In this document: in pieces, positions 26,870 to 53,997 of the stretch | Position numbering within the stretch: position 1 is the stretch's first letter | How the letters are laid out: the number at the start of each line of letters is the position of its first letter | From: Blastococcus sp. CT_GayMR16 | Lineage (GTDB): Bacteria > Actinomycetota > Actinomycetes > Mycobacteriales > Geodermatophilaceae | Reading direction: 5' to 3' | Length of the DNA stretch: 64,000 nucleotides | NCBI RefSeq assembly: GCF_004570875.1 | Contig: NZ_SPQK01000003.1 | Location: 1-64,000, forward strand | Program-made: the position numbers and the translations under genes | The notes under the pieces: generated by a model | What the model was told of the DNA's origin: nothing | Database searches by the model: none | Seen by the model: only the letters and a program-made list of their open reading frames with translations

Positions 26870-26910
26870 GGTGGAGTTGAGGGAGTCGAACCCTGATCCC
26901 CCACTGCCAG
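26870..26910 (-). other. Degenerate attachment-site copy of the tRNA-Ala(GGC) 3' end (att1)
   Basis: The stretch from GGTGGAG to ACTGCCAG matches the 3' part of the intact tRNA-Ala at 53715-53787, with a few substitutions and three short deletions. No 5' tRNA half follows. It marks the outermost (oldest) left boundary of the islands stacked at this tRNA. Confidence 0.75.
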
Positions 26911-27025
26911 GCCGCCATGATCGCGTTCAGGGCCTTCCGCTGCATTCCGTGGGTTCCCGAGCAGCCCCACTGCCCAAGGCGTTAGGCGCAGATCTGACGC
27001 CTGCCCGCCGTTACGATCGCCGGCC

Positions 27026-27412
27026 ATGACGACTCTTCCCGGAAGTGACCTCAGCGTTGATCTCCAAGCCGGAGAGCGCGTCCTGTCCTCCGTGCCGGCG
27101 GATGGGTACTTCGCGAGCCAGCACGCCGCATCTGCGCCAAAGCCGCACGTCGTCATCACCGGCCGGCGATTTATCGTCCTTACGCGTCGCGGCATGATGA
27201 AGCAACGTCTCGACGAGGTCGCCAGTTGGCCGCTGAGCAGCTTCACCGAGCGCATCAACACGAGTGAGGGTTCGGCGCTCGGCTCGTTCATGCATGTGCT
27301 GACGCTATTCGCGAATGACGGCGAGACCGTTTCAACGGGTTTCACATCGCAGCGAGCATGCGACGAGTTCAAGCACGAGGTCGTCGACGCACTGGGGCCG
27401 ATCCTCGGCTAG
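27026..27412 (+). CDS. PH-like domain hypothetical protein
   Basis: The 128-residue soluble protein has a pattern typical of small bacterial PH-like domains: GERVLSSVPADGYFAS, then HVVITGRRFIVLTRRG, then strands and a final helix ACDEFKHEVVDAL. It is a likely single-domain protein of unknown role. It lies just inside the outermost att copy, with slightly lower GC than neighbours. Confidence 0.6.
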   Translation: MTTLPGSDLSVDLQAGERVLSSVPADGYFASQHAASAPKPHVVITGRRFIVLTRRGMMKQRLDEVASWPLSSFTERINTSEGSALGSFMHVLTLFANDGETVSTGFTSQRACDEFKHEVVDALGPILG

Positions 27413-27646
27413 CCGGTCGAACCCTGAGCAACTGGGCGGGGCTGCCTCCCGTCGCCTACACGACGGCCACCCCGCAGCTCAGGCGTCACGTTGACAGGAC
27501 CGCCCTCGCTCGGCGTCCGGGGCCAGCTCATGACCCGGACGTGGACCGATCACTCCGGCTTGCACGTGCTCGGGCTGCACCGAGGACTCAGCGCGCGTCG
27601 CGGTTCAGCCGCAGCCACGTGCACAACCAGCCGCCGCTGGGATACG

Positions 27647-28306
27647 TCAGCGACGGCCGAGGAGGTTGTCTGCGACGTTGTCCAGGTGGGTGCGCATGGT
27701 CTTTTCGGCCCCGTCGGGGTCGCGGTCGCACAGCGCTTCGACGATCGCGGTGTGTTCGGCGTGGTAGCAGCGGCGCCGTTCAGGGGTGGACGTGCGGCGC
27801 TTGAGGCTGCCCCAGACCGGCAGTGACCGGGCGGTGTTCATGACGTCGAACATGTTCATCAGCAGGCCGTTGTGGGCCGCCTCGGCGATCGCCCGGTGCA
27901 GCTTCGCGTCCCAGGACTCGAACGCCTCGAACTCGTCGCTAGCGCCGCCGCTGTCGAGGCAGATGGTGATCCGATCAAGGTCCGCCTGGGTGGCGACGCG
28001 GGCGGCGAGTGCGGCCACCGGCGGCTCGATCACCAACCGGACCTGCATGATCTCGGCGGGGCTGGTGTCGGCCGGCGCGTCGGCCCGTCGTTGCGCCAGT
28101 TCGCTGAGAAACGTGCCCCGCCCGACCTGGCGGATGACCAGCCCCTCCTCCTCCAACACGTCGAGCGCGCGACGGATCGCGCTGCGCGGCGCGGACAGCC
28201 GCTGCACGAGCTCCCGTTCGGTTGGCAGCTTCGCGCCGGGGACGAGGGAACCCTTCGCCGTCCCCTCGTCGAGGAGGGCGCGTAGTGACTGCTCGGCGTT
28301 CAGCAT
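27647..28306 (-). CDS. GntR-family (FadR/FCD type) repressor
   Basis: The 219-residue protein has a winged helix at about 1-70 (GAKLPTERELVQRLSAPRSA and GLVIRQVGRGTF) and an FCD effector domain. The latter includes MQVRLVIEPPVAALAA, the metal/effector residues in WDAKLHRAIAEAAHN, and the final HTAIVEALCDRDPDGA segment. It is divergent from the FAH-family gene. The repeats in the shared 144-bp gap are its probable operators. It likely senses an intermediate of the adjacent catabolic cluster. Confidence 0.9.
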   Translation of the reverse strand: MLNAEQSLRALLDEGTAKGSLVPGAKLPTERELVQRLSAPRSAIRRALDVLEEEGLVIRQVGRGTFLSELAQRRADAPADTSPAEIMQVRLVIEPPVAALAARVATQADLDRITICLDSGGASDEFEAFESWDAKLHRAIAEAAHNGLLMNMFDVMNTARSLPVWGSLKRRTSTPERRRCYHAEHTAIVEALCDRDPDGAEKTMRTHLDNVADNLLGRR

Positions 28307-28324
28307 GCAGCCACCCTACCGCAC

Positions 28325-28448
28325 ATGAACCAATCGAGACCAATGTAGTGACCGAAAATAGGCGCAAATCACCCCTCGACATGGCGTGCGTCACCCCGTA
28401 GCGTCCCTTTCAGCCGAACATTGGTCACAATGGTTCAGATTGGTTCAT
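28325..28448. promoter_or_regulatory. Divergent operator region with inverted ATGAACCAATC repeats
   Basis: ATGAACCAATC (28325-28335) and its exact reverse complement GATTGGTTCAT (28438-28448) flank the gap between the GntR gene and the FAH-family gene. GTGACC (28348) and GGTCAC (28423) form a second inverted pair. On the right side TTGGT/TGGTT units recur about every 10 bp, and CCAAT recurs on the left. The left copy is 19 bp before the GntR start and the right copy ends 2 bp before the hydrolase start, fitting autorepression and repression of the operon. Confidence 0.7.
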
Positions 28449-28450
28449 AC

Positions 28451-29335
28451 ATGAAGCTCGTGACGTACTCCACCGGTACGGACCAGCGGGTGGGCGTCGT
28501 GGCCGTCGAGCGCGGCGTGGTCCACGACGTCACCACCGTCCTCCCCGACGGCACCGGCATCCTGCAGCTGATCGAGGGATGGGCCGAGTTCGGCCCGCGC
28601 CTGCAGCAGCAGGCCGCCGGGCAGCCGGAGCACTCGCTGGACGCGGTGCGCCTGCTGGCGCCGATCCCGGCGCCGCGGCGGAGCATCTTCTGCGTCGGCA
28701 AGAACTACCGGGACCACGTCCTGGAGTTCGGGCGCAGCGGCTACGACAGCCCGGACCGCTCGCAGGAGATGCCCGAGGCGCCCGTGGTGTTCTCGAAGGC
28801 GACCACCTCGGTCACTGGTCCCTTCGATGACATCGACCCGCACCACGGGGTCACCGGCGAGTTGGACTACGAGGCCGAGCTCGGCGTCATCATCGGCCGC
28901 GGCGGACGCGGGATCAGCCGAGAGCAGGCCTTCGATCACGTGTGGGGCTACACGATCATCGACGACTTCACCGCCCGCGATCTGCAGCGCACACACAAGC
29001 AGTGGCTGATCGGGAAGTCGCTGGACACGCACTGCCCGATGGGCCCCTACGCCGTCTCCGCCGACGAGGTTCCCGACGTGACCGCGTTGGTGGTGGAGAG
29101 CTCCGTGAACGGCGAGCTCCGCCAGAACGCGTCGGTCAAGGACCTCATCTTCGACATCCCGGAGCTCATCGCCACCATCTCCGCCGGCATCACGCTGCTG
29201 CCCGGCGACATCATCGCCACCGGCACCCCGGCCGGGGTCGGCATCGGCTTCGACCCGCCCAAGTTCATGACCAGCGGCGACGTCATCGAAATCTCGATCA
29301 CCGGGCTCGGCGCGCAGCGCAACCGGATCGCCTGA
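28451..29335 (+). CDS. Fumarylacetoacetate hydrolase family protein
   Basis: The 294-residue protein belongs to the FAH superfamily: IFCVGKNYRDHVLEFG, PVVFSKATTSVTGP, the metal ligands in LDYEAELGVIIG, IDDFTARDLQ, and GDIIATGTPAGVG. Members hydrolyse or decarboxylate beta-diketo acids and ring-cleavage products with a divalent metal. ATG 28451 is chosen; earlier starts (28421, 28430) fall inside the operator repeats. No ribosome binding site is visible, so the message may be leaderless. It opens a four-gene catabolic operon. Confidence 0.9.
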   Translation: MKLVTYSTGTDQRVGVVAVERGVVHDVTTVLPDGTGILQLIEGWAEFGPRLQQQAAGQPEHSLDAVRLLAPIPAPRRSIFCVGKNYRDHVLEFGRSGYDSPDRSQEMPEAPVVFSKATTSVTGPFDDIDPHHGVTGELDYEAELGVIIGRGGRGISREQAFDHVWGYTIIDDFTARDLQRTHKQWLIGKSLDTHCPMGPYAVSADEVPDVTALVVESSVNGELRQNASVKDLIFDIPELIATISAGITLLPGDIIATGTPAGVGIGFDPPKFMTSGDVIEISITGLGAQRNRIA

Positions 29336-29357
29336 GCCGGCCGGAGGGAGGGACGAC

Positions 29358-30119
29358 GTGAACATCAACGGCAAGGAACTCGCGGTCGAGATCGACGGCC
29401 GGGGCCCGGCGGTGCTGCTGGTGCACGGCCTGGGCGGCACGACCAACTTCTATCAGGTGCAGGCCGACGCCCTGGCCGACCGGTTCCAGGTGATCCGGGT
29501 CGACTCGGCCGGCGCCGGCCGATCCCCGGTCGCCGACGGGATCAGCATCGCCTCGCACGCCGACGACCTCGCGGCCTTGCTCGAGGAGCTCGGGGTCGCC
29601 GGCGCCGCCGTCGTCGGCCACTCGATGGGCACCCTGGTCGTACGGGATCTCGCGGCCCGCTACCCGGACAAGGTGTCCGCGCTGGCGCTGCTGGGTGCCG
29701 TCCGGGAGCCGGCCGAGGCGGGCCGGCAGGCCCAACGCGACCGGGCCGCCCTGCTGCGCGAGAAGGGCACCGCCGCGGTCGCCCCGGCCGTGGTCGCCAA
29801 CGCCTTGTCGGAGACCACCCGGCGGGACAAGCCCGAGGTCGCCGCCTTCGTCCGGGAGCTGATCATGCGCCAGGACCCGGAGGGCTACGCCCGCAACTGT
29901 GAGGCACTCGCCGCCGCGACCGATCCCGGACCCATCGATCCGAGCCTGCCGCTGCTGCTGGTCACCGGCAGCGACGACAAGGTCGGCCCGCCCGAGGCCA
30001 GCCAGGAACTCGCCGCCGCCCACGGCAGCGCCACGGTCGAGATCCTTCCCGGAGTCGGCCACTGGACCGCCCTCGAGGCCGCACGCCCGGTCGCCGACCA
30101 GCTGCTGAAGTTCCTCTGA
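29358..30119 (+). CDS. Alpha/beta hydrolase (enol-lactonase-like)
   Basis: The 253-residue protein has oxyanion motif LLVHGLGGTTNFY, nucleophile GHSMG (Ser about 94), acid in VTGSDDKVGPP and catalytic His in GVGHWTALE. The size and helical lid resemble 3-oxoadipate enol-lactonase-type hydrolases. A very strong GGAGGGAGG precedes the GTG start. It lies between an FAH hydrolase and an amidohydrolase, so it probably opens an ester or lactone in the same pathway. Confidence 0.88.
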   Translation: MNINGKELAVEIDGRGPAVLLVHGLGGTTNFYQVQADALADRFQVIRVDSAGAGRSPVADGISIASHADDLAALLEELGVAGAAVVGHSMGTLVVRDLAARYPDKVSALALLGAVREPAEAGRQAQRDRAALLREKGTAAVAPAVVANALSETTRRDKPEVAAFVRELIMRQDPEGYARNCEALAAATDPGPIDPSLPLLLVTGSDDKVGPPEASQELAAAHGSATVEILPGVGHWTALEAARPVADQLLKFL

Positions 30120-30236
30120 ACCGCCGCTCCACTCCAGCAGTACCGCACCCCAGCACCGTTGATTGGCGCCCGTCGGGCGCGCCCAAGGGCGCCGGCGAAC
30201 CGTTCGGCGTTCCCCTCACGCAAAGGAGATGCAACC

Positions 30237-31547
30237 GTGCCCGTCCCCATCGACAAGACGCTGTTCCGCAACGTCAGCATCCTCGACTCCACCGGCGCCG
30301 ACCCCTACCCCGGCGATGTCCTGGTCGAGAACGACCGCATCGCCGTCGTCGGCACCGTCGAAGCCTCCCGCGCCGAAGGTGCCCGCGTGATCCAGGGCCG
30401 CGGCCGCACCCTGATGTCCGGGCTGTGCGACGCGCACACCCACTTCACCTGGAACAACAGCGCCGACCTCGACGGCCTGGGCACCATGCCGGTCGAGGAG
30501 CACCTGCTGTTCGCCCTGGAGTCCGCCCGCACCTACATCGACTCCGGCTACACCATGTGCCTGGGTGCGGCGTCGGCGAAGGACCGCCTGGACGTCGTCT
30601 GCCGCGACGCCATCAACGCCGGACGCTTCCCCGGACCCCGCTACCTGGCCAACGGCCCGGAAATCGCGGTCACCGGCGGCGCGCTGATCAAGAGCATCAC
30701 CAAGTTCGCCGACGGCCCCGAGGGCATGCGCAAGGCCGTCCGCGAACTCATCGAACTCGGCGTCGACCAGATCAAGCTGTCCATGACCGGCGAGGAGATC
30801 ACCGGCACCCAGCGCGCCGAGGACACGTACTTCTCCGACGAGGAGACCGCCGCCGCCGTCACCGAAGCCCACCGCCGCGGCAAGCGGGTCTGCGCCCACG
30901 CCCGCAGCGCCGAGAGCGTGAAAATGTGCGTCCGGAACAAGGTCGACATCATCTATCACGCCAGCTTCACCGATGCCGAGGGCATGGACATGCTCGAGGC
31001 CAACAAGGACTGGGTGTTCGTCGCCCCCGGCCTGAACTGGCTCATCGCGACCCTCTACGAGGCCGAGGCGTTCGGCTTCCCGCAGGAGGCTGCTGAGGCC
31101 GTCGGCTACAAGAAGGAGCTGGACACGGCCGTCAAGGGGCTGCGCGAAATGCACCAGCGTGGGATCCGGGTCCTGCCCGGCGGCGACTACGGCTTCGCCT
31201 GGACCCCGCACGGCACCTACGCCCGCGACCTGGAGCACTTCGTCGAACTGCTCGGCTTCACCCCCATGGAGGCGATCATCTCGGCCACCGCGTGGGGCGG
31301 CGAGATCATGCTGCGCCCCGACGAGCTCGGCAAGGTCCAGCCCGGCTACCTCGCCGACCTGATCCTGGTCGACGGCGACCCGCTGGCCGACATCACCGTT
31401 CTGCAGGACCACTCGAAGATCAACTACGTCATGAAGGACGGCCGGTTCCACAAGGAGCACGCCGGAGACGACCACACCCCGGCGCCGCCGCGGCCGACCG
31501 ACCTGGTGCACGACATGGCCGAGTCCGTCGTGACGCACCGGCCCTGA
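30237..31547 (+). CDS. Amidohydrolase-superfamily enzyme
   Basis: The 436-residue protein is a metal-dependent amidohydrolase of the imidazolonepropionase-like group. It has CDAHTHFTWN (HxH), a Lys/Ser stretch DQIKLSMTG that may bridge metals, RVCAHARS and IIYHASF (His ligands), and GGDYGFAWTPHGTY with the catalytic Asp. GTG 30237 is chosen because AAAGGAG lies 8 bases upstream, although the frame opens earlier. It should cleave a cyclic or linear amide. The substrate is unknown; the neighbours suggest breakdown of a natural product or xenobiotic. Confidence 0.88.
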   Translation: MPVPIDKTLFRNVSILDSTGADPYPGDVLVENDRIAVVGTVEASRAEGARVIQGRGRTLMSGLCDAHTHFTWNNSADLDGLGTMPVEEHLLFALESARTYIDSGYTMCLGAASAKDRLDVVCRDAINAGRFPGPRYLANGPEIAVTGGALIKSITKFADGPEGMRKAVRELIELGVDQIKLSMTGEEITGTQRAEDTYFSDEETAAAVTEAHRRGKRVCAHARSAESVKMCVRNKVDIIYHASFTDAEGMDMLEANKDWVFVAPGLNWLIATLYEAEAFGFPQEAAEAVGYKKELDTAVKGLREMHQRGIRVLPGGDYGFAWTPHGTYARDLEHFVELLGFTPMEAIISATAWGGEIMLRPDELGKVQPGYLADLILVDGDPLADITVLQDHSKINYVMKDGRFHKEHAGDDHTPAPPRPTDLVHDMAESVVTHRP

Positions 31548-31613
31548 TGTCGATCGAGGTGCCGGCGACCAGCTCACCCTGATCGCCGGCACCCCTCTAA
31601 CCGGAGCCCGCCG

Positions 31614-32057
31614 ATGACCCTGCTGATCTGCCGCACCTGCCCCCGCTACGACCCCCGCGCCACTGGCGAGTTCGGCCGCCGGCTGACTGCCGCGATTGCC
31701 CGGGTCGCCGACAACGAGCCCGAAACCACCGTCGCCGTCCGCAACGTCCAATGCTTGGGCGGCTGCCCGGACGAGGGCGTGGTCGCCGTCGACGGACCGC
31801 AGAAGGCCCGCGTCCGCTTCACCGGGCTCGACGAGTCCGACGCGAAAGCGGTCTTCGCCGCCGCGGTGGCCCACGAAGCCTGCCTCACCGGCGCACCCGA
31901 GGACTGGGAGATCCCCGCCGAGCTCGCCGACCGGATCAGCTCGGTCACCCTCAAGCGGTCCGCTCCCTCGCCGGCCGGTCACAGCCGCGGGCCTCTGCCG
32001 CACCCGCTGCCCGGACAGGCAGCCAGACGGTGGGACCTCGAGCCGCATCGGCGATGA
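31614..32057 (+). CDS. DUF1636 metal-binding protein
   Basis: The 147-residue protein matches DUF1636: LLICRTCPRYDPRATG supplies CxxC, and NVQCLGGCPDEG supplies CxxxC, together a ferredoxin-like cluster site. The conserved AHEACLTGAPEDWEIP lies near residue 95. The family is predicted to bind a metal or Fe-S cluster; its biochemical role is not established. The last 30 residues are Pro/Arg-rich and may be altered by the adjacent island junction. It follows the amidohydrolase by 66 bp. Confidence 0.8.
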   Translation: MTLLICRTCPRYDPRATGEFGRRLTAAIARVADNEPETTVAVRNVQCLGGCPDEGVVAVDGPQKARVRFTGLDESDAKAVFAAAVAHEACLTGAPEDWEIPAELADRISSVTLKRSAPSPAGHSRGPLPHPLPGQAARRWDLEPHRR

Positions 32058-32148
32058 ACCGGCGCCTCCCGGCTTCAGCTACCCGGCGTCGGCAGACGCA
32101 GAGTCGCGGCATTGGTGGTGGCACGGGGCACTTGTTGGCCAGCGCTCT

Positions 32149-32262
32149 GGCCCGCGAGAGGCGGACCGCATGAGCGCTCTCCTGCTGGCAAGTAAGGGCG
32201 GGCAAACTGCAACCACGCAGTTGGTTGAACGCCGGCGAAACAACGAATGCCCTGCTCAGATG
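32149..32262 (+). pseudogene. Remnant 3' end of a lost tyrosine integrase
   Basis: The frame reading READRMSALLLASKGGQT, then TTQLVERRRNNECPAQ, aligns with the last residues of the intact integrase before its att core (READ/AADRMGALLL, KGRQTAT, TTELVESGQDEESPAQ). All upstream integrase sequence is missing. One arm-type CTGCAACCA is retained at 32208-32216. It shows that island 1 once carried its own related integrase at this end. Confidence 0.75.
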
Positions 32263-32306
32263 GGTGGAGCTGAGGGGACTCGAACCCCTGACCCCCACAC
32301 TGCCAG
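32263..32306 (-). other. Attachment-site copy of the tRNA-Ala(GGC) 3' end (att2)
   Basis: The core is identical to 53713-53756 of the intact tRNA locus; identity extends left to 32249, giving 58 exact bases. It ends abruptly after GCCAG, and the tRNA 5' half is absent. It is the junction between island 1 and island 2. Confidence 0.88.
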
Positions 32307-32713
32307 CTCGGCTGGTGGGGGTCCGGGAACGTTCGTCGAAGTACATCCTCGCAAGTCAGAGACGGGCATGGCCATCAGCAGATTTCGACGAACGACCATG
32401 AAGGCTGGCCCGTGGCCACCGTCCTGGCACCATCCTGTGGCCGCCTAACCGCGTCGACCCGGACGCGCGCGCCTACCCCAGCTTTCCCGTTGGGCCGATC
32501 TTGCCGACGTCGGGCCAGCCCTTTTCGTCGCGGAACCGCCCGCCTCCGGCCTTCCAGCCCGAGGTGCCACCACGAGTCCTTCCCGACCGCGCTGGGCGAG
32601 GGCCGCCCAGACTCGCGCTCCCCGGATTCAGCCCCGCCCGATGCGGTCGATCACGAGTGGCGCAGGTCGGGCGCGGTCCTCGACGCGGCCGCCCCGATGG
32701 CACGCACCGCTCG
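32307..32713. other. Intergenic stretch at left end of island 2
   Basis: No convincing gene is seen. It contains an 11-bp inverted repeat: CGTTCGTCGAA at 32330-32340 and TTCGACGAACG at 32384-32394. This could be a regulator or recombinase site near the element end. The remainder shows only overlapping chance frames. Confidence 0.5.
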
Positions 32714-34207
32714 CTAGCGGAGGTCGAACCGCGCTCGTAGCTCGTCGCCGTCGCGGAAGCGCAGCACCAGGTCGTGGCACCCCGACGCCCGCCGAGGGGT
32801 GGCCCACAGCAGCAGGTACTGACCGCGGCCGACGGGGATCGGTGCGAGCACCGACGCACCGACCGCGACCGGCGTGCCGGCGCAGGTGATCAGCTTCGGG
32901 TAACCCGCGGCCAGCACGTCGGAGCCGCGGGCGCCCGAGAGGCCGAAGCGCACGGGCACGATCGATCCCGGCTTGACCCGGTTGGGCTGCGGATAGGCCC
33001 GCAGCGGAGCGAACGGCCCCGATGCCGTGTACTCCAGCCGGCCGACCTCCCAGGTGGAGAACCGGCTCGTCCGCACGGTGAGGACGGCGTCGCCGTCGGC
33101 GGTGACGCTGCGGTTGGAGACGCAGGGGTCGGGAGTCGCCCCCGTCCCCGTGCAGTCGGCCACCGCCGCCCCGTTCCGGAACACCTGCACGTCCTGCGGG
33201 GCGATGCCGTCCAGCAGTGTCGCGTCGACGGCGAAGGTCATGACGTACGGGTCGGCGGTGGTCGCGTTCGGGCCCTCGATCGCCAGTGCTGAGTCGACAC
33301 CGTCCGCCGCGAACAGGGCGTAGCCGGCGGGCGCCGGACCGCCGCTCGGCTGCCGCGTGGCGCTCACGTGCCCTGTCATCCCGTCCGGCGGGTCGATGGT
33401 CAGCACCACGGGCAGGTCGGGGGTCGCCTCGTCGCCCGTGCTGAACGGCGCACCCGAGCCGTCGAGCTCGACGTCGACGCTGCCCACTGCAATCGGAGTC
33501 GTGGTCAGGGCGCGATAGAAGAGCTCGAAGAATTCACCCGCCACAAAGGGTCCCACGGAGGAATCCTGCACGTGCTGCTGGTTGACCTGCATGAAGGAGT
33601 CGCCGGTGACCTGCGACTTTCCACCAGGCCCGGTAATGGTCGCGTCGTACGCCACGTAGGCCAGCGCCAGGTTGAGGGTTCCGCTGGCACCGGTGACCTG
33701 GCTCAGCGTGTGATCAGCGAAACTACTGCATGCCCCGGAATTGATCGGCCCGCCCGACGTGGAGAAATCGGCTGGTACGTCGGCCTTCAGGGTCGTGGTG
33801 CCCCTGATGGTCCCCGCCGGCGAGTCGATGCTGAAGGTCTCGTCGAAAGACAGCAATGGCCCGACGGCCAATTCGTTGGATGAGCTGCCGCCCGGCATGA
33901 CCTGCGGGCCGATCTGATACGAGCCGGACGCGGTGAAAGGACCCGAGTAGGTCCCCGTAGCGGTTCCCGAGGCAGTGAAGGACACGGTCGAGATTCCACC
34001 GGGGTCACAGAGCTCGTCGGTGTCGACCGAATCGGTGTCGATCATGATTTGCGTCGAGATGCTTGGGGGTGCGGCCGCGGACGCGACATGGACGCCGGAC
34101 AGCACAGTCATGACGACCGGGATCACTGTGCCGAGACGCGCCGTCAGACGATGGTGTTTCCGTTGGATGCGGCGTGGCCTGGCGCGGCCGCCGCCATCAC
34201 CGCGCAT
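32714..34207 (-). CDS. Secreted protein with C-terminal PxKF-like domain
   Basis: The 497-residue protein has a basic n-region, then a signal peptide (VIPVVMTVLSGVHVASAAA). A Thr/Ser/Gly-rich beta region follows (about 40-400). The C-terminal 90 residues resemble the PxKF module of exported actinobacterial proteins (NRVKPGSIVPVRFGLSG, then GRGQYLLLWATP and CHDLVLRFRDGDELRARF). ATG 34207 is preferred although the frame is open to 34453. No enzyme motif is seen; it may be a surface or adhesion protein. It is the only gene of island 2. Confidence 0.72.
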   Translation of the reverse strand: MRGDGGGRARPRRIQRKHHRLTARLGTVIPVVMTVLSGVHVASAAAPPSISTQIMIDTDSVDTDELCDPGGISTVSFTASGTATGTYSGPFTASGSYQIGPQVMPGGSSSNELAVGPLLSFDETFSIDSPAGTIRGTTTLKADVPADFSTSGGPINSGACSSFADHTLSQVTGASGTLNLALAYVAYDATITGPGGKSQVTGDSFMQVNQQHVQDSSVGPFVAGEFFELFYRALTTTPIAVGSVDVELDGSGAPFSTGDEATPDLPVVLTIDPPDGMTGHVSATRQPSGGPAPAGYALFAADGVDSALAIEGPNATTADPYVMTFAVDATLLDGIAPQDVQVFRNGAAVADCTGTGATPDPCVSNRSVTADGDAVLTVRTSRFSTWEVGRLEYTASGPFAPLRAYPQPNRVKPGSIVPVRFGLSGARGSDVLAAGYPKLITCAGTPVAVGASVLAPIPVGRGQYLLLWATPRRASGCHDLVLRFRDGDELRARFDLR

Positions 34208-34606
34208 CCCTCCCGGCCGGGCACTTCCATCAGAACGCGTGGCATCAGGCACCGGGAACCCCCGTGAAACTTCCGGCCAGAGGAGCCGGTAGGTAGACCT
34301 GCTGCAAAGTAGGCCTGCTGCGACGACCGCGTCAACGGCGGCCGACGAAGAGGTCGTCATCGTGCAGGGCGGCCGGCTCACGGTCACCGCCAACGGCCAG
34401 GAGTACGTGCTCAGGAGGGCGACTCGCTCCTCCTGGAGCCACGCTTGCCGCACAAATACCGGAACGGCGGCGACGTCCCGGCCCGCTCGCTGTGGGTCAT
34501 GAGCCCGCCGATGGACTGAGGTGGCGGTCCCAGCTCACGCGGAGCTCTCTGCTGTGCCAGAGACGCCTCGGGCAGCCCCCTCGAAGGAGAACGGCGTGAT
34601 CGTAGC

Positions 34607-34650
34607 GGTGGAGCTGAGGGGACTAGAACCCCTGACCCCCACACTGCCAG
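34607..34650 (-). other. Attachment-site copy of the tRNA-Ala(GGC) 3' end (att3, attL of island 3)
   Basis: Forty-four bases match the tRNA 3' end with one mismatch (ACTAGAAC for ACTCGAAC). Arm-type repeats lie 117 bp to the right. Together with 53713-53756 it bounds a 19-kb element that still has an integrase. Confidence 0.88.
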
Positions 34651-35541
34651 GCCGACCTGACGGCGTTCGCCGATGCCCGCCGAAGTCCGAAAAGGCCTGG
34701 TGAGCAGGCGGTTCGGCGCTTCGCCGGACGACGGCGAACGAGCGTGAACCAAGATCGAAGTGGGCCAACTGCAACCAGAACTGCAACCAAGAATGCCTCT
34801 TGTTAACTTGGCTCATTAGCGCTCGGCAGGACAGGCGCCCATCGCGGCTCCCCGGGTGGAAGCACCGGCCGGGCTAGTGCTGGACGTGCTCCTGGCGGCC
34901 GGCAAAGCGATGTCTCTGGACAGTCCGGCGCCCCGGCTCGTGTCGGCGGGGAGCAGCGACCAGCCGGTGACGGCGTCGGACGCCGGGTGCTGTTCTTGGA
35001 CGAAAAGCCTGCCTTCGAGCTGAGCTGGTGGTGCTGCACCTGCCAGTTCTTCTTCCGGCGCCTTGAGGGCCGCCAACGACACCTCTCGATCCCTGGCCTG
35101 CGCCAACCCCTCACCGGTCGACTCGGTGGCCTGGAGCGGGTCATCAGCCGCTTCGCCGCCCTCCTCCCCCGCGGCAGCTACCTCCCGCTTGCTGCTGAGC
35201 ATCACGCCGCGGGTGATCCACCCGGTTCGGGACGCCGACAACTTCACCGAGGAGCAGGTCGCCGTCCGGGGCGTCGACTCGTTCTGGGGCCTGCCGGAGC
35301 ACCCGCGCACTGCCTGCTACCGCAGCTTCAACTCCCCGGTAGACCACAACAGCCACGGCCACGGCCACCCCACCCGCCCCGACCTCGGCCGACGGCGAGC
35401 GGCGGAGAGCGGCGGAGAGCGGGAGAGGTCCAGCCGCAGCGCCGCCAACGATGCCCCCGCCAACCAGTAGTCTCCATCTTTGGCAATAGTCTTAGTCATC
35501 GGTGCCGCAAAACAGGAACATCGCGCAGGAATGAGAAAGCC
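34651..35541. other. Non-coding left end of island 3 with arm-type repeats
   Basis: At 34767-34789 two copies of CTGCAACCA separated by GAA reproduce exactly the pair at 53643-53665 near the integrase 3' end, so both are probably integrase arm sites. TGA 34658-34660 is in the integrase frame once the element circularises. The rest (34.8-35.5 kb) has open frames on both strands but none has a ribosome binding site or recognisable family. Confidence 0.65.
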
Positions 35542-38343: not shown

Positions 38344-38393
38344 CACGCGTGGCGCCTCTTTGGATGGCGACGGCCTGGCCCGATCGTCGCGCC

Positions 38394-40604: not shown

Positions 40605-40889
40605 TCGGGGACCGTAACCCCGCGAGATGCGACACTTTGAGTGGTTAAGCTGCGTGTCGATCTGCACAGAACCTGCGTGACCTGCGCCTGAAGCGCCGAG
40701 GTCGCCGCGAGGGGCCTCTCGGTGGTGACCTGTGCACTGCTGGCCTCTACCGTCGCTGTTCGCTTGCCTGAACATCGGGCTAGCCAGGGGCAATGCCGAT
40801 GACGAACTGCAGGCCTGCGGCCCAACGTGCACCGGAGTTCTCTGCGACGAGGAACGTCCAGTCTGGTGGATGGCCGGGCGTCGCCGTCA

Positions 40890-42512: not shown

Positions 42513-42654
42513 TTGCCTCCGAACACTTGACCTCCGCCGCTCCGGACCCGATCTGCCGCACAACCGTAGGCGGTGACACTGACACGGGAACTACCAAGCG
42601 GCTCTACTCAAGCCTTCAAGATCACGGGCCATCACAGACCCGTGAATAGGTGGG

Positions 42655-44511: not shown

Positions 44512-45236
44512 CGTAAAACCGCAGGTCAAATGGCCTGTTAGGCATACCGGAGGAGTCCCGCAGGACCCTCTGAAGGCCCCCGATTTGACCCTTAGAGACC
44601 CCTGTTTCCGATGGATAGGTCATGAATACGTCACGCCGCGAGCCCGGATACGCACAGGTCAAGGCGGCTGAACGTCTCGCTGCAGGGGCCACCGTGCCCA
44701 CGGATAGGTCACGCTGACGCCTCACCGGGCTGGTCACCGCAGTCCGGCGTCGTCCGAAGAATCAAGGTGATGCCGCGCGGCGATCCGCCGGCCGATCTTC
44801 TAAAGCGGAACGCCGAGGAGTTCGGCTGCTGCCCGGCTGCGGACGAAGCCGGCGTGCGCGGCGTACGGCCACGACGGTGTCTGCCAGCCGCCGTCCGTGA
44901 GGAGATCGGGGGGCAGGCCTCGTGGGGGCGGCGGAGTAGAGGGCGTACTGGCTGTTCCGGCGCTGAACCCTGCGTGGAACGGCGCGTCAGGCAGGCCGTG
45001 CCCCCGGTGTCCTTATTACTCGAGCGGCTCGGCACCTGAAGGACAAGCAGGAACCAGGCCCATGACGACGACCCCCAGCAGTGCGACCTGCTGCAAGAAC
45101 TGCCCCAACAACTTGGCCGGGACCTTAGGGCCGCGTCGGGTAAGCCCAACAAGTTGCGGCCAGCGCTCGCCGCGTCCATCAGGCCTGCGGCCCCCCGGCC
45201 ATATACATGGCGCACCGCATGGCAATAGGGTTGGGC
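44512..45236. other. Intergenic region, no supported gene
   Basis: About 700 bp hold only short chance frames. A GGATAGGTCA repeat occurs at about 44613 and 44702. GC falls toward the right as the A+T-richer module begins. Confidence 0.4.
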
Positions 45237-46088
45237 ATGCCGTACTACGAGAGCGGACACGTTCGCCTTGAGTATCGAACCCTTGGGCCGGATCATGCGG
45301 AAATCGTCGTTCATCTTCACGGGTTCCCGCAGCCTTCTGACGTCTGGATGCCAATCGCCGACCGATTGCAACAGGAGGGGTTTCGCAGCCTCATCCTTAA
45401 TCAGCGGGGTTACCCTGACACTCAAGTACCCAGGGGGGTAAGGAATTACCGATTGCGCCTATTGGTGGACGATGTGATCGGGTTGCTAGAATCGATTGGG
45501 AGCACGTCGGCACATATTGTTGGACACGACTGGGGCGGGTCGGTGGCCTGGTCGTTAGCCCATAGGCGACCGGATTTAGTGAAATCCTTAACGGTAATCT
45601 CGATGCCACACCCTCAGGCGCTAGCGCGATCCCTTCTTGTCAGTTCTCAAGCACTGCGAAGCTGGTACGTGATTCCCCTCATGATTCCCAGCCTCGTGGA
45701 GCAGGTCGCAAGATTCTTCCCGCGCCTGGCGCAGGCATGGCTAGCCAGCACAGGGTTGGACGACAAGACTGCCGAAGCACACCTTGAGCGAATGCAAGAA
45801 GGTCCACACGGATTGACCGGTCCACTCAACTGGTACAGGGCAATTCCGCTAAACATAATGCAAGAGCCTTGGAATCTCCCAATCACACCAAGAACGCTGT
45901 ACATATGGTCCCGGGGGGATCAAGTCGTCACGGTCGCGGCGGCGAAGCTAACCCGGCGGTACGTGGCTGGACCATTTGACTTCGAGGAGATTGACGGCTC
46001 TCACTGGCTTCCAGAGGAGCATTCGACTGCCTTGGTAGAACTACTCTTGCAGCATTTCCGCGGAGGCCGCGCTCGAATCGCTCCATGA
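45237..46088 (+). CDS. Alpha/beta hydrolase, epoxide-hydrolase-like
   Basis: The 283-residue protein has HLHGFPQPSDVW (oxyanion HGxP), nucleophile GHDWGG (Asp in place of Ser, as in epoxide hydrolases and haloalkane dehalogenases), WSRGDQVV (acid) and DGSHWLPEE (His). ATG 45237 is chosen; an in-frame ATG lies 30 bases upstream. Base composition is well below the host. Its 3' end overlaps the convergent desaturase gene by 161 bp, suggesting one of the two was extended or cut by rearrangement. Confidence 0.85.
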   Translation: MPYYESGHVRLEYRTLGPDHAEIVVHLHGFPQPSDVWMPIADRLQQEGFRSLILNQRGYPDTQVPRGVRNYRLRLLVDDVIGLLESIGSTSAHIVGHDWGGSVAWSLAHRRPDLVKSLTVISMPHPQALARSLLVSSQALRSWYVIPLMIPSLVEQVARFFPRLAQAWLASTGLDDKTAEAHLERMQEGPHGLTGPLNWYRAIPLNIMQEPWNLPITPRTLYIWSRGDQVVTVAAAKLTRRYVAGPFDFEEIDGSHWLPEEHSTALVELLLQHFRGGRARIAP

Positions 46089-46854: not shown

Positions 46855-46856
46855 TG

Positions 46857-48455: not shown

Positions 48456-51083
48456 TCAGCCCCCGGCCTGGCCGTAGGCCTTTTGGGCCTCCTGAAGCTC
48501 CTGCCAGTGTGCCTCGAGGCCGGCGAGCGTCGGGCTCACGTTCTGCGAAGCGAGTGGCTGCGAGTGTCCGTCGATGTACCGACACGCGTCCTCGAAGATT
48601 CGCGTGACGGTTTCGATGGCGACCGGCAGAGCGGCTGCCTTGATTTGCGACAGGGTGGTCATGCGCACGTTGGGCTGATAGCGCTGGGTCACGCCTTGGA
48701 GCAGCGCACTTTCGGTGAACACCTCACACCACGACCGGATCCAGCCGTAGCCCGTCCGAACCAATGCCGCCCGAGCCTCACCACTCTCCTTCTGAGCCGC
48801 CTGGATCGTCTCGTTAATCTTCCTCTTCATGTTTCCGACCGTGTCCCAGCGGGGCCCGGTCGCGCGTGCAACCTCACCCTTCCCCGCTTCGTCGGTGATC
48901 TGGTAGTAGGTGCAGCGCTTGGACTTCTCGAACAAGCCCAGCAGGGTCGAGGCGAAAAAGATGTCGTGCGTGAAGACGATGACCTGGTTGTCTTCGGCAA
49001 GCATCGCGATTCGCGTGGCCACCTCGCGGATGCGGCGGTGATCAAGACTCGAGACCGGGTCATCGAAAACGACCGGCGCGTCGATGCCGGCCAGCCGAGC
49101 CTCTGCGAGGAAGTCCGCCATCGCTAAGACCTTCTGCTCGCCCTCGGACAGCACCTTCGACGGCTTCACCTTGCCGCCAATCATCTTCCGCCGCTGAGCC
49201 TTCCCCTGCCGCCCGAGGAACTCGATCCGTAGCTCCGGCGCTCGCAGTGCGGCGCACTCCTCCTGGAACAACGTGTCGAAGCTCTGGTTGATCAACTGAT
49301 CGCTGGCGGTCTTAGCCAAGGCCGTCAAGCTGCGGCTCAGGCCTGGCAGAGGCTTGCTCAGGATGCCTAGGCGGTCGGCTTCCTTCGCGTTGCGGACGTG
49401 CGAGTCGATCATGGGCCACGACTTGGCCAGCTCCGCGGCGGCAATCAGCTCGTCGCGCTCCTTCTTCTTCTGCGCCAGCGCTGTTGTGCGGTTGTCGGCC
49501 TGAGTCCGCAGCGAGACCAGCAGGGCTTCGGCGGCCGCATGCGCTTCGGCGAGGGTCTCCGAGAGTGGCGCGACCGTCGCGTGGAGGTCGGCCTCGGTTG
49601 CGGAGCCGACCGCCGTCATCTTCTGGACGCTCGTCAGGGTCGAGTGCAACTCCCTGAGCGCCGGATAGAAGGGCGGGGTCTCGCCGGCGTCCGCGTACTC
49701 GGCGACGAACGAGGCAATGTCGGTTGAGTCGATGCCGAGCACCGGGGCAACCGTGGCCTTTATGCTGGCATCGGTGGCGGCGATATCGTTGCTGATCTTG
49801 TCCGCCAAATAGTCGGCGTACTTGGCGAGGAGTTCTCGAGCTGGGTCGGCCAGTGGCTGCCGGCAGTACAGGCAGCGGGCGACATCATGTGAACCAATCT
49901 CTTCCAGGTGCCGCCGGTATCGCTCGCCGGCGGCAACGAACTCTCCCCAGGACTCCTCCGGTCCAGCAGGGAGGTCTGCGGCGCTGAACAGTTCGTCGCG
50001 AAACTTCTTGTAGTCCGCGTCCAGTGCAACTCGAGTAGCGAGAAGCGACCGATAGCCGAAGCTATCGAACGCGGTCAGGGTGGCCGCGACGGTGGTCGCC
50101 TGGGAGAGAACCCGCTCCACGCGGGTCAAGGTGATGATCTGCGTGCCGATGGTGTTCGCCTCGAGTGCTGCGACTGCTTGACGCAGGACGTCGATGCGTT
50201 CCTCGATGTTCGGGTCGGGATCGGACTTCGCCTTGAGCGCTTCGAGGTCGGTGGAGGCCCCGAGCGTCTCGATCAGCGGATGAACCGTGGCCTCCTTGGG
50301 AAACCGGCTCAGCAGGGTGGTCGCGCCCGAGGTGAGATGCTTGGCGGCGTCATCGATCTTCGCCTGGATCAATTTCAGGCCGGCGACGACGTGGTTAAAC
50401 AGCGCCAACGCCGCCGGTACGTATGTGTACTCAAGGTCGTCGTCAACGTGGAAGTTCACCGAGGGACTGTCGAAGATCGACATGCGGATGAACGGCGAGA
50501 CACCGCGCTCCCCGGTCCATGCAAGTGTCCTGGTGTCGCTGCCGAGCTTGTAGACGATGGTGGCCGACTGCGGGTCGTTGGAGGCGGCGGCGAGATTGCC
50601 GAGGATGACGTCCGCCGTCCGGCTCGCGGCGAGTGCCTTGAAGATTCGCGAGTATCCGGTCTTGCCCGTGCCGTTCTCCCCGAAGAGGATCGTGAGTCCC
50701 TCGTGGGGTTCGATGACAGCGCCGGCGACAAGCGCATTGACGCCGCTCACGTCGCACAACTTCTTAATGGTTAGGGGCTCGTCGGCCTCGTCAGCGCTGG
50801 CGGGGGTCGTTAGCGCTGGGACCTCCGGGGCGGTGCGTTTGTCGAACGCTTTCTCCTGCCGGAAGAGCTGGTACGCGTCCTCAGCGTCTTCAAGCGACAG
50901 AGGCCGGCCGGTGTCGAGGACTTGCCGGACTACGAATCGGACCCACTCGTCGCTGTCGTTTGCCCAAGCAGCCAGGATCGCCCGCGGATCGGTTCCAGGC
51001 ACAGCCGCGGCCGCGTCAGGCGCGGCAGCAGCCGCGCTTCCAGGGGAGACGGGGGCCTCGTCGCCAGCGTCCATGTCGGCCAC
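48456..51083 (-). CDS. SMC/RloC-like AAA ATPase with zinc-hook CxxC
   Basis: The 875-residue ABC-type ATPase has Walker A FGENGTGKTGYSRIF (about 134-148), a central coiled coil broken by CLYCRQPL (about 404-411, a zinc-hook-like CxxC), ABC signature KVLSEGEQK (about 643-651) and Walker B VVFDDPVSSLDH (about 671-682). This is the AAA_13 layout shared by RloC/PrrC-type and other antiphage ATPases. I do not see a clear anticodon-nuclease triad in the C-terminal 150 residues. No partner gene is attached. Defence function is inferred from family and island setting. Confidence 0.82.
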   Translation of the reverse strand: MADMDAGDEAPVSPGSAAAAAPDAAAAVPGTDPRAILAAWANDSDEWVRFVVRQVLDTGRPLSLEDAEDAYQLFRQEKAFDKRTAPEVPALTTPASADEADEPLTIKKLCDVSGVNALVAGAVIEPHEGLTILFGENGTGKTGYSRIFKALAASRTADVILGNLAAASNDPQSATIVYKLGSDTRTLAWTGERGVSPFIRMSIFDSPSVNFHVDDDLEYTYVPAALALFNHVVAGLKLIQAKIDDAAKHLTSGATTLLSRFPKEATVHPLIETLGASTDLEALKAKSDPDPNIEERIDVLRQAVAALEANTIGTQIITLTRVERVLSQATTVAATLTAFDSFGYRSLLATRVALDADYKKFRDELFSAADLPAGPEESWGEFVAAGERYRRHLEEIGSHDVARCLYCRQPLADPARELLAKYADYLADKISNDIAATDASIKATVAPVLGIDSTDIASFVAEYADAGETPPFYPALRELHSTLTSVQKMTAVGSATEADLHATVAPLSETLAEAHAAAEALLVSLRTQADNRTTALAQKKKERDELIAAAELAKSWPMIDSHVRNAKEADRLGILSKPLPGLSRSLTALAKTASDQLINQSFDTLFQEECAALRAPELRIEFLGRQGKAQRRKMIGGKVKPSKVLSEGEQKVLAMADFLAEARLAGIDAPVVFDDPVSSLDHRRIREVATRIAMLAEDNQVIVFTHDIFFASTLLGLFEKSKRCTYYQITDEAGKGEVARATGPRWDTVGNMKRKINETIQAAQKESGEARAALVRTGYGWIRSWCEVFTESALLQGVTQRYQPNVRMTTLSQIKAAALPVAIETVTRIFEDACRYIDGHSQPLASQNVSPTLAGLEAHWQELQEAQKAYGQAGG

Positions 51084-51584: not shown

Positions 51585-51995
51585 TTGACGACCCCGAAGG
51601 CCACCTCGGGCCCAGCCGCTTCGGACGTGCACGGTCCGGAGCGGCGAGCCGCCGCGACGACCTGTGGGTGGTGCGGTGGGCCGATGACACCCGGGAGCCG
51701 GGGGTCGATCCCCAAGTGGTGTTCAGCCACGTGCCGGCACCGCGCCTGGGAGCAGGCCCGGGCGGCGGCCTCCGGTCTGTCCGCGGTGGAGGTCATCGAG
51801 CGGCGCGTCGAAGTCCAGGTACCTCTAGTGCCCACCCGCCGCGACTGGCCCAGACTGCTCAGCGACCTCGCAGCGCGGCTGAACGACGGGCGGGTCTACG
51901 ACCGCGACTTGCCCGCCCTGGCGCGGGCTCTGGAACCCGTACTGGAGAACTACCGGCGACGTGCGCACCTCACCGGCGCTCCCGACCTGGACTGA
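51585..51995 (+). CDS. Small zinc-ribbon protein of the recombination module
   Basis: The 136-residue protein has CGWCGGPM and WCSATCRHRAWEQ (two cysteine pairs for one zinc, about residues 27-54), then a helical region. It probably binds DNA. Start TTG 51585 is the only one in a reasonable place. It precedes the excisionase and integrase on the same strand, as accessory zinc proteins often do in actinobacterial integrative elements. Confidence 0.65.
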   Translation: MTTPKATSGPAASDVHGPERRAAATTCGWCGGPMTPGSRGSIPKWCSATCRHRAWEQARAAASGLSAVEVIERRVEVQVPLVPTRRDWPRLLSDLAARLNDGRVYDRDLPALARALEPVLENYRRRAHLTGAPDLD

Positions 51996-52171
51996 ACCCG
52001 AGCTCCAGTACTTCTGCAGTAGTAGGAAGCAGCGGCTCCGGTCTCCGAGTCGGCGACGGTCACCATGGGGATGGCCTGACTGGTGAGGCACTGGAGATGT
52101 TCGGCAGGCCACTCCCCCACCGTCGTGCGCAAGCCTCCACGTAGCACGCGACTGATCCGGGAGATGTCGAT

Positions 52172-52414
52172 ATGGATGATCCGCAGCCGCTTCGGGAAGT
52201 CATGGCCGCCGACCGTCTCCTCCTCACGCCCGAAGAGGCCGCGGAGGTCCTACGCATCGGTCGCACGACGGTGTACGCGCTCATGAAGAGCGGGGAGCTG
52301 CGCTCGGTACACATCGGCCGCAGCTGCCGAATATCCCAGGCAGAGGTCGAGCGCTACGTGCGCCGGCTCCAGGCTCTCCCATCTCGTCCACAGCCTTCGC
52401 CGGACGCCGCGTGA
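52172..52414 (+). CDS. Excisionase-family DNA-binding protein
   Basis: The 80-residue winged-helix protein has LLTPEEAAEVLRIGRTTVYA then GELRSVHIGRSCRISQAEVE, the standard excisionase/AlpA helix-turn-helix. It directs excision or regulates the integrase located 74 bp downstream. The start is ATG 52172, with ATG 52202 as alternative. Confidence 0.88.
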   Translation: MDDPQPLREVMAADRLLLTPEEAAEVLRIGRTTVYALMKSGELRSVHIGRSCRISQAEVERYVRRLQALPSRPQPSPDAA

Positions 52415-52488
52415 ATCCACAGCGAGCCTGCCCTTTACCTCAGCGCTCCAGGACACTCAGCCTCCAAGAGAGCTTCAAGGGGTAGCGG

Positions 52489-53997
52489 ATGGCGGGACGC
52501 GCGTCGAACGGAGAGTCGACGATCTACAAGGGCGCCGACGGGCGCTGGCACGGCTACGTCTCCGTCGGGTTCACGCTCGACGGCAAGCTCGACCGCCGGC
52601 ACGTCAGCAGCAAGAGCCGCGGCGTCGTGGTCGCGAAGGTCCGAGAGCTCGAACGCCGGCGCGACACCGGGACGGTCAGCGAGACGTCGACCCCGACCGT
52701 CGGCGGGTGGCTCGAGCACTGGCTGACCACCATCGCGCCGCGCCGGGTGCGCCAGCGGACGCTGGAAAGCTACGAGTCCGCCGTCCGCAAGCACCTGATC
52801 CCTGGCATCGGCCGCCACCGCCTCGACCGGCTGCGGCCCGAGCACCTCGACCAGCTCTACACCGCCCTGCTCGACGCCGGCTATTCCCCCGCTTCCGTTC
52901 TGCGGCACCACCGCATCCTGTCCCGGGCCCTGACCGTCGCGGTCCAGCGCGGCCACGTCCCGCGCAACGTCGCCTCGCTCGTCGACCCGCCGGCGCAGCG
53001 GCCGAGCGACCTGGCCACCGCCCTTGATCTCGACGAGGCCCGCGCCGTCCTGGAAGCGGCCGCCACCGTGCGCAACTCGGCCCGATGGACGGTCGCGCTG
53101 GCCCTGGGCCTGCGGCAGTCCGAGGCCCTCGCCCTCCAGTGGAAGGACATCGACCTGCTGGCCAACACCGTCACCGTCCGGCGCAGCATCCACCGCGTCC
53201 GCGGCGGCGGGCTGATCTACGAGGAGCCCAAGAGCAAGCGCAGCCAGCGCACCCTGGCGCTTCCGCTACCGCTCGTCGCCGAACTCCACCGGCACAAGGC
53301 CGCCCAGCTCGGCGAGCGGATGCTGGCCGGCTCCGAGTGGCACGACGAGGACCTGGTCTTTGCCCAGCCCAACGGCCGGCCGATCGACAAGAAGACCGAC
53401 TACGACGACTGGACCCGACTGCTCCAGCAGGCCGGCGTCCGCCACGTCCGGCTGCACGACGGCCGGCACACGGCCGCCACCCTGCTGCTGTCCGAGAACG
53501 TGCACCCGCGCGTGGTCATGGAGCTGCTCGGCCACAGCCAGATGCGCACGACGATGGACATCTACAGCCACGTCATGCCCGCGCTGGCCCGCGAGGCGGC
53601 GGACCGGATGGGCGCCCTGCTGCTGACAGGTAAGGGCAGGCAAACTGCAACCAGAACTGCAACCACGGAGTTGGTTGAAAGCGGGCAGGACGAAGAAAGC
53701 CCTGCTCAGATGGGTGGAGCTGAGGGGACTCGAACCCCTGACCCCCACACTGCCAGTGTGGTGCGCTACCAGCTGCGCCACAGCCCCTTGCCGACCCGGT
53801 CTGGTGTGTCCGAGCCGGTGGCAACAGTACAGGGCGCGACGCTCGATCCCGCGCAGGGGTGGCGACGCCCGTGGCGGCCGCCGCCACCCGCAGACCAGGT
53901 CAGCCCAGCTTCATCTGCGCGATGCGGATGTGGTTGCCGAAGGGGTCGCGGAGCCCGAAGTCGATGCCGTACGGCTGGTCGACCGGCTCCTCGGTGA
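52489..53997 (+). CDS. Tyrosine integrase reading through the tRNA-Ala gene
   Basis: The 502-residue product has an N-terminal arm-binding domain, a core-binding SAM-like domain (about 62-150) and the catalytic domain with ALGLRQSEALAL (Arg), LHDGRHTAATLLL (HxxR) and LLGHSQMRTTMDIYSHV (His, nucleophile Tyr). The catalytic domain ends near residue 385. From 53710 onward the frame runs antisense through tRNA-Ala and into chromosomal DNA. If the element is circularised through att3 the frame stops four codons beyond the core, giving 425 residues. It should catalyse integration at tRNA-Ala and appears intact. Confidence 0.9.
   Translation: MAGRASNGESTIYKGADGRWHGYVSVGFTLDGKLDRRHVSSKSRGVVVAKVRELERRRDTGTVSETSTPTVGGWLEHWLTTIAPRRVRQRTLESYESAVRKHLIPGIGRHRLDRLRPEHLDQLYTALLDAGYSPASVLRHHRILSRALTVAVQRGHVPRNVASLVDPPAQRPSDLATALDLDEARAVLEAAATVRNSARWTVALALGLRQSEALALQWKDIDLLANTVTVRRSIHRVRGGGLIYEEPKSKRSQRTLALPLPLVAELHRHKAAQLGERMLAGSEWHDEDLVFAQPNGRPIDKKTDYDDWTRLLQQAGVRHVRLHDGRHTAATLLLSENVHPRVVMELLGHSQMRTTMDIYSHVMPALAREAADRMGALLLTGKGRQTATRTATTELVESGQDEESPAQMGGAEGTRTPDPHTASVVRYQLRHSPLPTRSGVSEPVATVQGATLDPAQGWRRPWRPPPPADQVSPASSARCGCGCRRGRGARSRCRTAGRPAPR
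53643..53665 (+). promoter_or_regulatory. Arm-type integrase binding repeats
   Basis: Two copies of CTGCAACCA separated by GAA (preceded by AA) lie 48 bp left of the core within the integrase 3' end. The same 23 bases occur 117 bp right of att3, giving the two arms expected of an attP. Confidence 0.7.
53713..53756 (-). other. Right attachment core of island 3 within tRNA-Ala
   Basis: The 44 bases from the anticodon loop to just past the discriminator base of tRNA-Ala are those repeated at att1, att2 and att3. Integration here restores the tRNA 3' end. Confidence 0.85.
53715..53787 (-). tRNA. tRNA-Ala (anticodon GGC)
   Basis: The 73-nt cloverleaf reads (minus strand) acceptor GGGGCTG/CAGCTCC, D-arm GCGC...GCGC, anticodon arm CCACA-CTGGCAG-TGTGG with anticodon GGC, and T-arm AGGGGTTCGAGTCCCCT. 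Discriminator is A. CCA is not encoded (CCC follows). It is the only complete tRNA in the window and the integration target of the stacked islands. Confidence 0.95.

Follow-up and report, generated by a model that had tools for sequence, protein, structure and literature searches.

Three integrative elements probably stacked at the 3' end of a tRNA-Ala(GGC) gene in Blastococcus sp. CT_GayMR16

The present study concerns a tRNA-Ala(GGC) gene of Blastococcus sp. CT_GayMR16 and the 27 kb to its left, contained in a stretch of 64,000 nucleotides (positions 1 to 64,000 of contig NZ_SPQK01000003.1; hereafter the window, 64 kb). The intact gene is on the minus strand; an earlier note on this DNA had recognised it at 53715-53787, and ARAGORN corrected the start to 53713. 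Three partial copies of its 3' end lie further left. In BLAST comparisons within the window, 44/44 bases are identical at 32263-32306 (E 3.6e-42) and 43/44 at 34607-34650 (E 4.1e-16), and the copy at 26870-26910 is gapped and 86% identical (E 2.4e-6). The copy at 32263 is enclosed in a longer match of 82% between 32163-32306 and 53601-53756. All three terminate at the same GCCAG, as had been observed before. A sensitive local scan uncovered no further core copy in the window, the next best score of 24 being equal to the best on the opposite strand. Other BLAST matches to the tRNA in the host genome were either 75-86% identical, presumably representing other tRNA genes, or limited to 28 bases at 93%. 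The copies delimit three segments, A, B and C, of 5,393, 2,344 and 19,106 bp, matching the earlier estimates of ~5.4, 2.3 and 19.1 kb. As is characteristic of a tRNA-gene island, the tRNA at one end of the locus is intact and a displaced fragment marks the other.

We propose, with a probability of roughly 0.93, that three integrative elements are stacked at the 3' end of tRNA-Ala(GGC), first A, then B, then C, and that A and B are remnants and C intact-looking. An element that displaces a 3' tRNA fragment must have its own left end next to that fragment. In other genomes, the right flanks of core copies fall mostly into three classes: I (GCCGTCATGATCGCGTTC), II (GCCGACCTGACGGCGTTC) and III (∼144 nt, starting GGCGGCTGG). 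Behind the window copies, the sequence from 26911 is of class I (17/18), that from 32307 of class III and that from 34651 of class II; a class III model matched 32309-32449 at E 3e-26, the window sequence being itself among the 12 used to build the model. Since each copy adjoins a different recurring end class, the three are genuine att sites of three different elements.

Short repeats mark the same ends. The 11-bp repeat AACTGCAACCA, arranged in pairs with a period of 12, occurs five times at up to one mismatch on both strands of the 64 kb; all five are exact and all are at element ends (53643 and 53655 beside the integrase of C, 34767 and 34779 at its left end, and 32205 in the integrase remnant of A), compared with 0.008 exact matches expected from base composition. 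To judge by sequence and position, the pairs are probable arm sites of the integrase of C. All eight sister type I/II left ends that were read carry such a pair at 147-173 nt from the core, three with a one-mismatch unit, and a fragment with a different end at 46770 in G002 has a pair at 117-129. Class III ends carry TGGCYACC..TGGCACCA instead (window 32413). A tyrosine integrase beside the att site is found only in C, which alone still looks intact and mobile from its sequence. A retains the final part of a second integrase gene, with a 12-bp gap corresponding to one repeat unit, and in B none was recognised. The proposal of stacked site-specific elements is supported by ends I, III and II, by an integrase or its tail to the left of the 32263 and 53713 cores, and by the main cargo genes, which as far as tested are missing or distant in relatives.

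Table 1. Coordinates of features at the tRNA-Ala(GGC) locus, numbered as in the window
Feature	Position	Strand	Evidence
Small P-loop kinase-like gene; homologue is the nearest shared left gene in G008	10764-11825	-	
TatA/B-like, phoX, tatC, tatA block left of A, accessory	23480-26690	-	
Degenerate att core (86%), then type I end (17/18); left boundary of A	26870-26928	+	
A cargo: GntR/FCD regulator (-); FAA hydrolase, alpha/beta hydrolase, amidohydrolase, DUF1636 (+)	27647-32057	.	
A integrase 3' end and P-arm remnant, 82% to 53580-53712; one AACTGCAACCA left at 32205	32143-32262	+	
att core, 44/44; right boundary of A, left boundary of B	32263-32306	+	
Type III end, left end of B, with arm-like TGGCCACCGTCCTGGCACCA at 32413-32432	32307-32449	+	model match 32309-32449
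579-aa PxKF-domain protein, sole large called gene of B	32714-34453	-	
Degenerate copy of the tRNA hairpin, right end of B, z +0.35 vs shuffles	34560-34606	-	folding
att core (43/44), then type II end; boundary between B (left) and C (right)	34607-34668	+	
Pair of AACTGCAACCA (period 12) at the left end of C, probably P'-arm sites	34767-34789	+	repeat scan
1118-aa protein, DUF4365 and restriction-nuclease-type match, C cargo	34987-38343	+	PADLOC, E 1.5e-12
DUF3800 protein, C cargo	39837-40832	-	
557-aa protein, weak pP_pnuc_1 match below curated cut-off, C cargo	40890-42563	-	
IS110-family transposase, two overlapping frames, inside C	42715-44038	-	82% relative in G011 island
Alpha/beta hydrolase, C cargo	45207-46088	+	
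875-aa SMC/AAA_13-like ATPase, candidate defence gene, C cargo	48456-51083	-	PADLOC PDC-S06, E 1.7e-117
HTH_17 protein, putative excisionase; PHROG excisionase/regulator	52172-52414	+	profile matches
Tyrosine integrase of C; Phage_integrase, Phage_int_SAM_3	52489-53700	+	profile matches
Pair of AACTGCAACCA (period 12), probably P-arm sites for the C integrase	53643-53665	+	repeat scan
C-borne hairpin adjoining the tRNA 3' end, -11.6 kcal/mol, z -2.4	53670-53712	-	folding
tRNA-Ala(GGC), intact; bases 53713-53756 are the att core, attL of C	53713-53787	-	ARAGORN, BLAST, 44-mer scan
Conserved right flank: glyoxalase, AraC, M23 peptidase	53900-55544	-	

Cores, ends, repeats, integrase, hairpins and occupancy can be read directly, and from them we infer the insertion order, the function of the arm sites and excision. 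The target would be the 3' end of tRNA-Ala(GGC), used by an element family with a tyrosine integrase and an HTH_17 excisionase. Each integration would supply a new, identical tRNA 3' half (44 bp, from the anticodon loop to the 3' end) with a new hairpin behind it, and would displace the old half to the far end of the element. Repeated integration next to the tRNA would have produced A, then B, then C, and A and B would then have lost their integrases. A and C would represent one integrase group (arm AACTGCAACCA, ends I/II), and the left end of B appears to be of a second-group type (TGGCYACCA, end III). C may be excised as a circle of ∼19.1 kb by recombination between 34607-34650 and 53713-53756. 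The earlier note had placed the oldest segment to the left on the basis of divergence. The leftmost copy at 26870 is indeed degenerate, but the middle copy is identical while the one at 34607, nearer the tRNA, has a mismatch; the order is therefore based on geometry and the decay of the ends rather than on core divergence.

The hairpin behind the tRNA is a further recurring feature. A GC-rich hairpin sequence was seen by eye in this position in several island-free relatives. On folding, the native hairpin of G008 reached -30.8 kcal/mol (z -4.4) and an element-borne one in G012 -36.1 kcal/mol (z -8.3). Folding is thus strong in both, modest for the hairpin of C in the window, and no better than that of shuffles for the buried copy at 34607 (-14.4 kcal/mol); the stretch left of 26870 gave -20.3 kcal/mol (z -1.3). 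Decay of the hairpin at 34607 fits relaxed constraint once a layer has been separated from the tRNA. A consensus scan detected no canonical terminator at the tRNA of the window, where the hairpin might nevertheless serve as one.

The core is widespread in the family. A 44-mer scan allowing up to three mismatches found it in 64 of 66 genomes, and the reversed pattern, used as control, in none of the 66. Extra cores amounted to 40 copies in 31 of the 66 genomes, nine of which have at least two; the mismatch limit leaves degenerate copies, such as those at 26870 in the window and in G009 and G022, outside this count, and the right side could not be classed in seven of the 40, a few of which may be something other than element ends. 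The first repeat, AACTGCAACCA, was present in 17/20 type I/II ends and the second, TGGCYACCA, in 9/13 type III ends; the two were never found together (0/40, seven unclassed). Twenty relative tRNA loci were read. At twelve, the tRNA is accompanied by an HTH_17 gene and an integrase that is close to complete (in two pieces in G024, 1.2 kb away in G016), G010 has an integrase tail only, G002 has fragments without integrase, and in G005 the sequence ends at the tRNA. Five (G008, G017, G018, G021 and G027) appear empty, with a tRNA but neither fragment nor integrase in the stretch read. None of the 20 loci contains the same A-B-C array. Beside the tRNA of 19 relatives, the cargo of A to C gave weak matches (29-42%) and, in G011 only, the IS110 transposase at 82%. 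Relatives carrying the 27 kb as conserved backbone, named beforehand as grounds for abandoning the island interpretation, were thus not encountered.

A search from the integrase led to the same site. Of 56 loci examined (79 fetched), 49 had a tRNA-Ala core within ∼200 bp of the integrase, 37 as a whole tRNA and 12 as the core only, and close relatives were mainly Blastococcus, Geodermatophilus and Modestobacter records. Among integrases at least 82% identical, 49/52 rows had AACTGCAACCA before the core and none (0/52) the other motif, with several genomes counted twice. Among those at 63-68% with the core near, five of six rows had only a TGGCYACCA-type motif, and the sixth (L117) had AACTGCAACCA. 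There are two integrase groups with different arm repeats and one shared core. Integrase identity was rejected as a sole marker of the arm code, as it is not strict: L117 (63%) has AACTGCAACCA once, L112 (73%) has neither repeat, and L046/L108 (the same genome, 89%) and one L155 row (82%) have neither in exact form. Identity between the groups is 50% in the N-terminal domain and 66-68% in the other two domains (three group-2 sequences), but the N-terminal domain also evolves faster within group 1, so this contrast is weak evidence. Type III ends also occur far from tRNA-Ala (G009:C1:849219 and 2538902; L163:6852-7029). One stands behind a degenerate Ala core and another, at 2.54 Mb in G009, behind what looks by eye like the 3' terminus of another tRNA, so elements with other targets may use this arm sequence too. 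Some type III ends have another copy ∼880 bp further on, weaker and in the same orientation (L168:3788-4832; G075:C51, G079:C7), possibly representing very short elements.

The P arm could be read in 11 stacks. Group 1 precedes III in seven of them and I in two, while group 2 precedes I/II in two and III in none; in G007, one of the group 1-then-I stacks, the integrase piece is only 65% identical and ambiguous. The nine mixed-group stacks of 11 correspond to p = 0.012 against the top-layer frequencies (21 group 1 : 10 group 2) and to p = 0.11 by Fisher's test with fixed margins, and both values ignore relatedness. The excess is suggestive. We raise tentatively, and consider rather unlikely, the idea that stacks tend to alternate between two arm-code groups which share the core and a similar hairpin, and that mixed stacking preserves a layered record of cargo, including anti-phage systems. 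A same-group junction would recreate a complete attP in the chromosome, while a mixed junction would be complete for neither integrase; on this idea alternation would arise because same-group junctions are unstable. The lack of an integrase in B and in some other type III segments also suggested a non-autonomous type III family, which was rejected because G002, G016, G079 and G091 combine a group-2 P arm at the tRNA with a type III far end.

A and B have the features of cis-mobilisable elements (CIMEs): both are flanked by att cores and have lost recombinase and transfer genes, the left arm repeats of A being gone as well. By analogy they are CIME-like remnants, and they may be mobilisable in cis by likeness only. 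Several points weigh against the proposed stacking. The left boundary, at 26870, has neither the native hairpin sequence nor arm repeats left and is weak. In B an integrase end could not be recognised, and its group is read from one end only. Excision of C is a prediction, and scans of its called genes (Pfam, PHROGs, NCBIfam, PADLOC) revealed no gene for conjugation, replication or phage structure. The genes of A have a host-like third-position GC; this composition, together with a location beside tRNA-His in G014, implies that the cargo of A may have another history. The catabolic genes of A are found there, in another species, at 87% (L238:1-3955; G014:C289). Searched against 60 other genomes at E up to 1e-30, the amidohydrolase of A was 90% identical in G014 (same genus), 68% in one genome of another family, and at most 42% elsewhere. 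In the 60 other genomes, a single partial match was obtained for the PxKF protein of B and a single one, at 28%, for the ATPase of C.

Tandem arrays at tRNA genes in which the lower layers have decayed are already known; the present locus adds a well-preserved member, a corrected map and the idea of mixed stacking, which is testable but unproven. Pavlovic in 2004 reportedly dealt with ICESt1-related CIMEs or their tandem accretion. No paper on this site in Geodermatophilaceae was found by title or abstract start. The passages available of PMC5704250 describe CIME remnants and accretion in streptococci, related to ICESt1. Shared with these are recombinase-less decayed elements between att sites and a functional-looking element next to the target gene; here, in contrast, the top element showed no conjugation module, and the target is tRNA-Ala in Geodermatophilaceae. 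Tandem actinomycete integrative and conjugative elements (AICEs) are reported, in the part of PMC3218068 available, for Frankia (Fean5518/Fean5534 at tRNA-Lys) and Streptomyces avermitilis (Sav3708/Sav3728 at tRNA-Arg), and those in Frankia excise both separately and together. These resemble the present array in an actinobacterial tyrosine integrase with excisionase, a tRNA target, tandem arrangement, and related or unrelated integrases on one site, but in C no Rep or FtsK/TraB-type gene was found and the lower layers are decayed. Islands with displaced tRNA fragments are catalogued in Islander (PMC4383910, as far as its available text goes); there too a split tRNA is restored by the island and the displaced fragment marks its end, whereas here there are three fragments, and two integrase groups with different arm repeats use one core. 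The available passages of PMC11706625 mention Blastococcus for diDNases and islands, and this tRNA-Ala site is absent from them.

The flanks show that the islands are part of a larger variable stretch. The right flank of the tRNA is common to most relatives read, and the left side is variable. The earlier note had expected tatA beside tRNA-Ala in an island-free strain, an arrangement that was not found. phoX, tatC and tatA had no match in the 20 relative loci (up to 20 kb; G005 has no sequence left of the tRNA), and none in 48-58 kb left of the tRNA in ten relatives. TatC is present in 56/61 genomes searched, at 228 kb from tRNA-Ala in G012 and 1.2 Mb in G009, and the window genome has two tatC copies, the second on contig C29. 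The best PhoX match (67%, one stop) is from another family of the order, and any match was seen in 17/37 sampled genomes including its own, many of them short. The tat-phoX block, a phosphatase with its own Tat export genes, is accessory and not the native neighbour of the tRNA. In G008, which has no fragment, the homologue of the gene at 10764-11825 sits 1.75 kb from the tRNA; its product resembles gluconokinase. The window is largely colinear with G009 over 924-20823 and again from 51468, and the gene at 23132-23467 adjoins the att core in G012. Comparison of the flanks in G008, G009 and G012 thus yields a variable stretch of ∼42 kb, of which the att copies explain 27 kb. The island map is corrected accordingly: tatA drops out as the backbone neighbour, and variability extends further left than the earlier note had supposed. 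Genes for cNMP-binding/HATPase, response regulator-reductase and adenylate cyclase-AAA-TPR proteins occupy 12030-20849.

More layers may once have existed, though we would not expect it; part of 11.9-26.9 kb would then have entered at this tRNA too, and its att copies would since have disappeared. The position of the 10764-11825 homologue in G008 is in line with this, as is the 12030-20849 block, which among the genomes read is in the same place only in G009, elsewhere in G012, and partly on another contig of G004. No additional core rises above noise, however, and the presence of the 23132-23467 gene beside a core in G012 makes part of this stretch seem older than the islands. We consider it improbable that the 27-kb array came in a single transfer, as a composite whose stacking had taken place in a donor, and was not built up layer by layer in this lineage. 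Composite transfer of stacked elements is known (PMC5704250, passages available), and the left flank of 26870 is not native, but later rearrangement accounts for the latter equally well; the left end of A is far more decayed than that of C, and none of the 20 relative loci read has the array.

There is only a slim chance that C is a decayed prophage, a phage satellite or an AICE. Its integrase type does occur in phages (best 44.7%), in 14-kb plasmids of Saccharopolyspora (39.9%) and Streptomyces (37.3%), and, as a 73% relative, in one contig of a viral collection. The called genes of C contain no match to phage structural, RepSA/primase or FtsK/TraB proteins, nor were any among the best 25 of 41 Pfam families from 85 proteins of 10 sister loci. 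PHROGs matches on 10 C proteins were confined to integration/excision, DNA-binding and weak ATPase matches. As the replication initiator and FtsK/TraB-type protein that define an AICE are missing from the called genes, with small or missed open reading frames possible, C is not classed as one. The notion that the segments are conserved backbone with repeats from gene conversion or chance, for which the host-like codon-position GC of A could be cited, can practically be dismissed, being refuted by relatives: 19 have no close cargo match beside the tRNA except the IS110 transposase, the amidohydrolase, ATPase and PxKF protein are rare as described above, and the reversed control was zero.

The open frame of the integrase of C continues across the att core to 53997, through the antisense tRNA into the host flank, so that integration alters its tail. 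The frame is likewise open into the host flank in most group-1 loci read, so that the tails of such proteins in databases may in part be encoded by the host. An integration-driven switch of the integrase C terminus was rejected as a functional switch on the codon-position pattern: among eight type III junctions that share a stop position, the three codon positions show 440, 441 and 505 changes, and this near-equality indicates that DNA, not peptide, is conserved there. Five group-2 integrases with a core stop before it, as judged by eye. The final 108 nt preceding the core in group 1 are constant in length in 41 loci (34 distinct), with a mixed codon signal.

These results fix the exact ends of an integration hot spot that is widely used in Geodermatophilaceae and has varied cargo, some of it known or candidate anti-phage genes. 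Among the matches listed for 85 proteins of 10 sister loci are a CBASS cyclase, a Cap15-type effector, CapP, RmrA/RmrT, Tmn, SIR2 and others. At 1e-5, PADLOC matched two of 10 large cargo proteins from nine sister loci, and also two of 10 control proteins of the window outside the islands (seven left of A, three right of the tRNA), weakly and to cyclase/TIR-type models. The view that all sister elements are defence islands was only partly borne out, since not all loci have known defence genes and controls also match. With one core, two arm codes and a carried hairpin, the locus makes stack stability and cis-mobilisation testable in a soil and stone actinomycete. The same kind of island occurs in L084 (SPQJ01000001.1), labelled Bacillus sp. 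AZ43 (UNVERIFIED_ORG), an organism label that looks wrong. In G062, two att cores with integrase remnants lie at C1:464961-468537, ∼327 kb from tRNA-Ala on the same contig, suggesting a relocated array.

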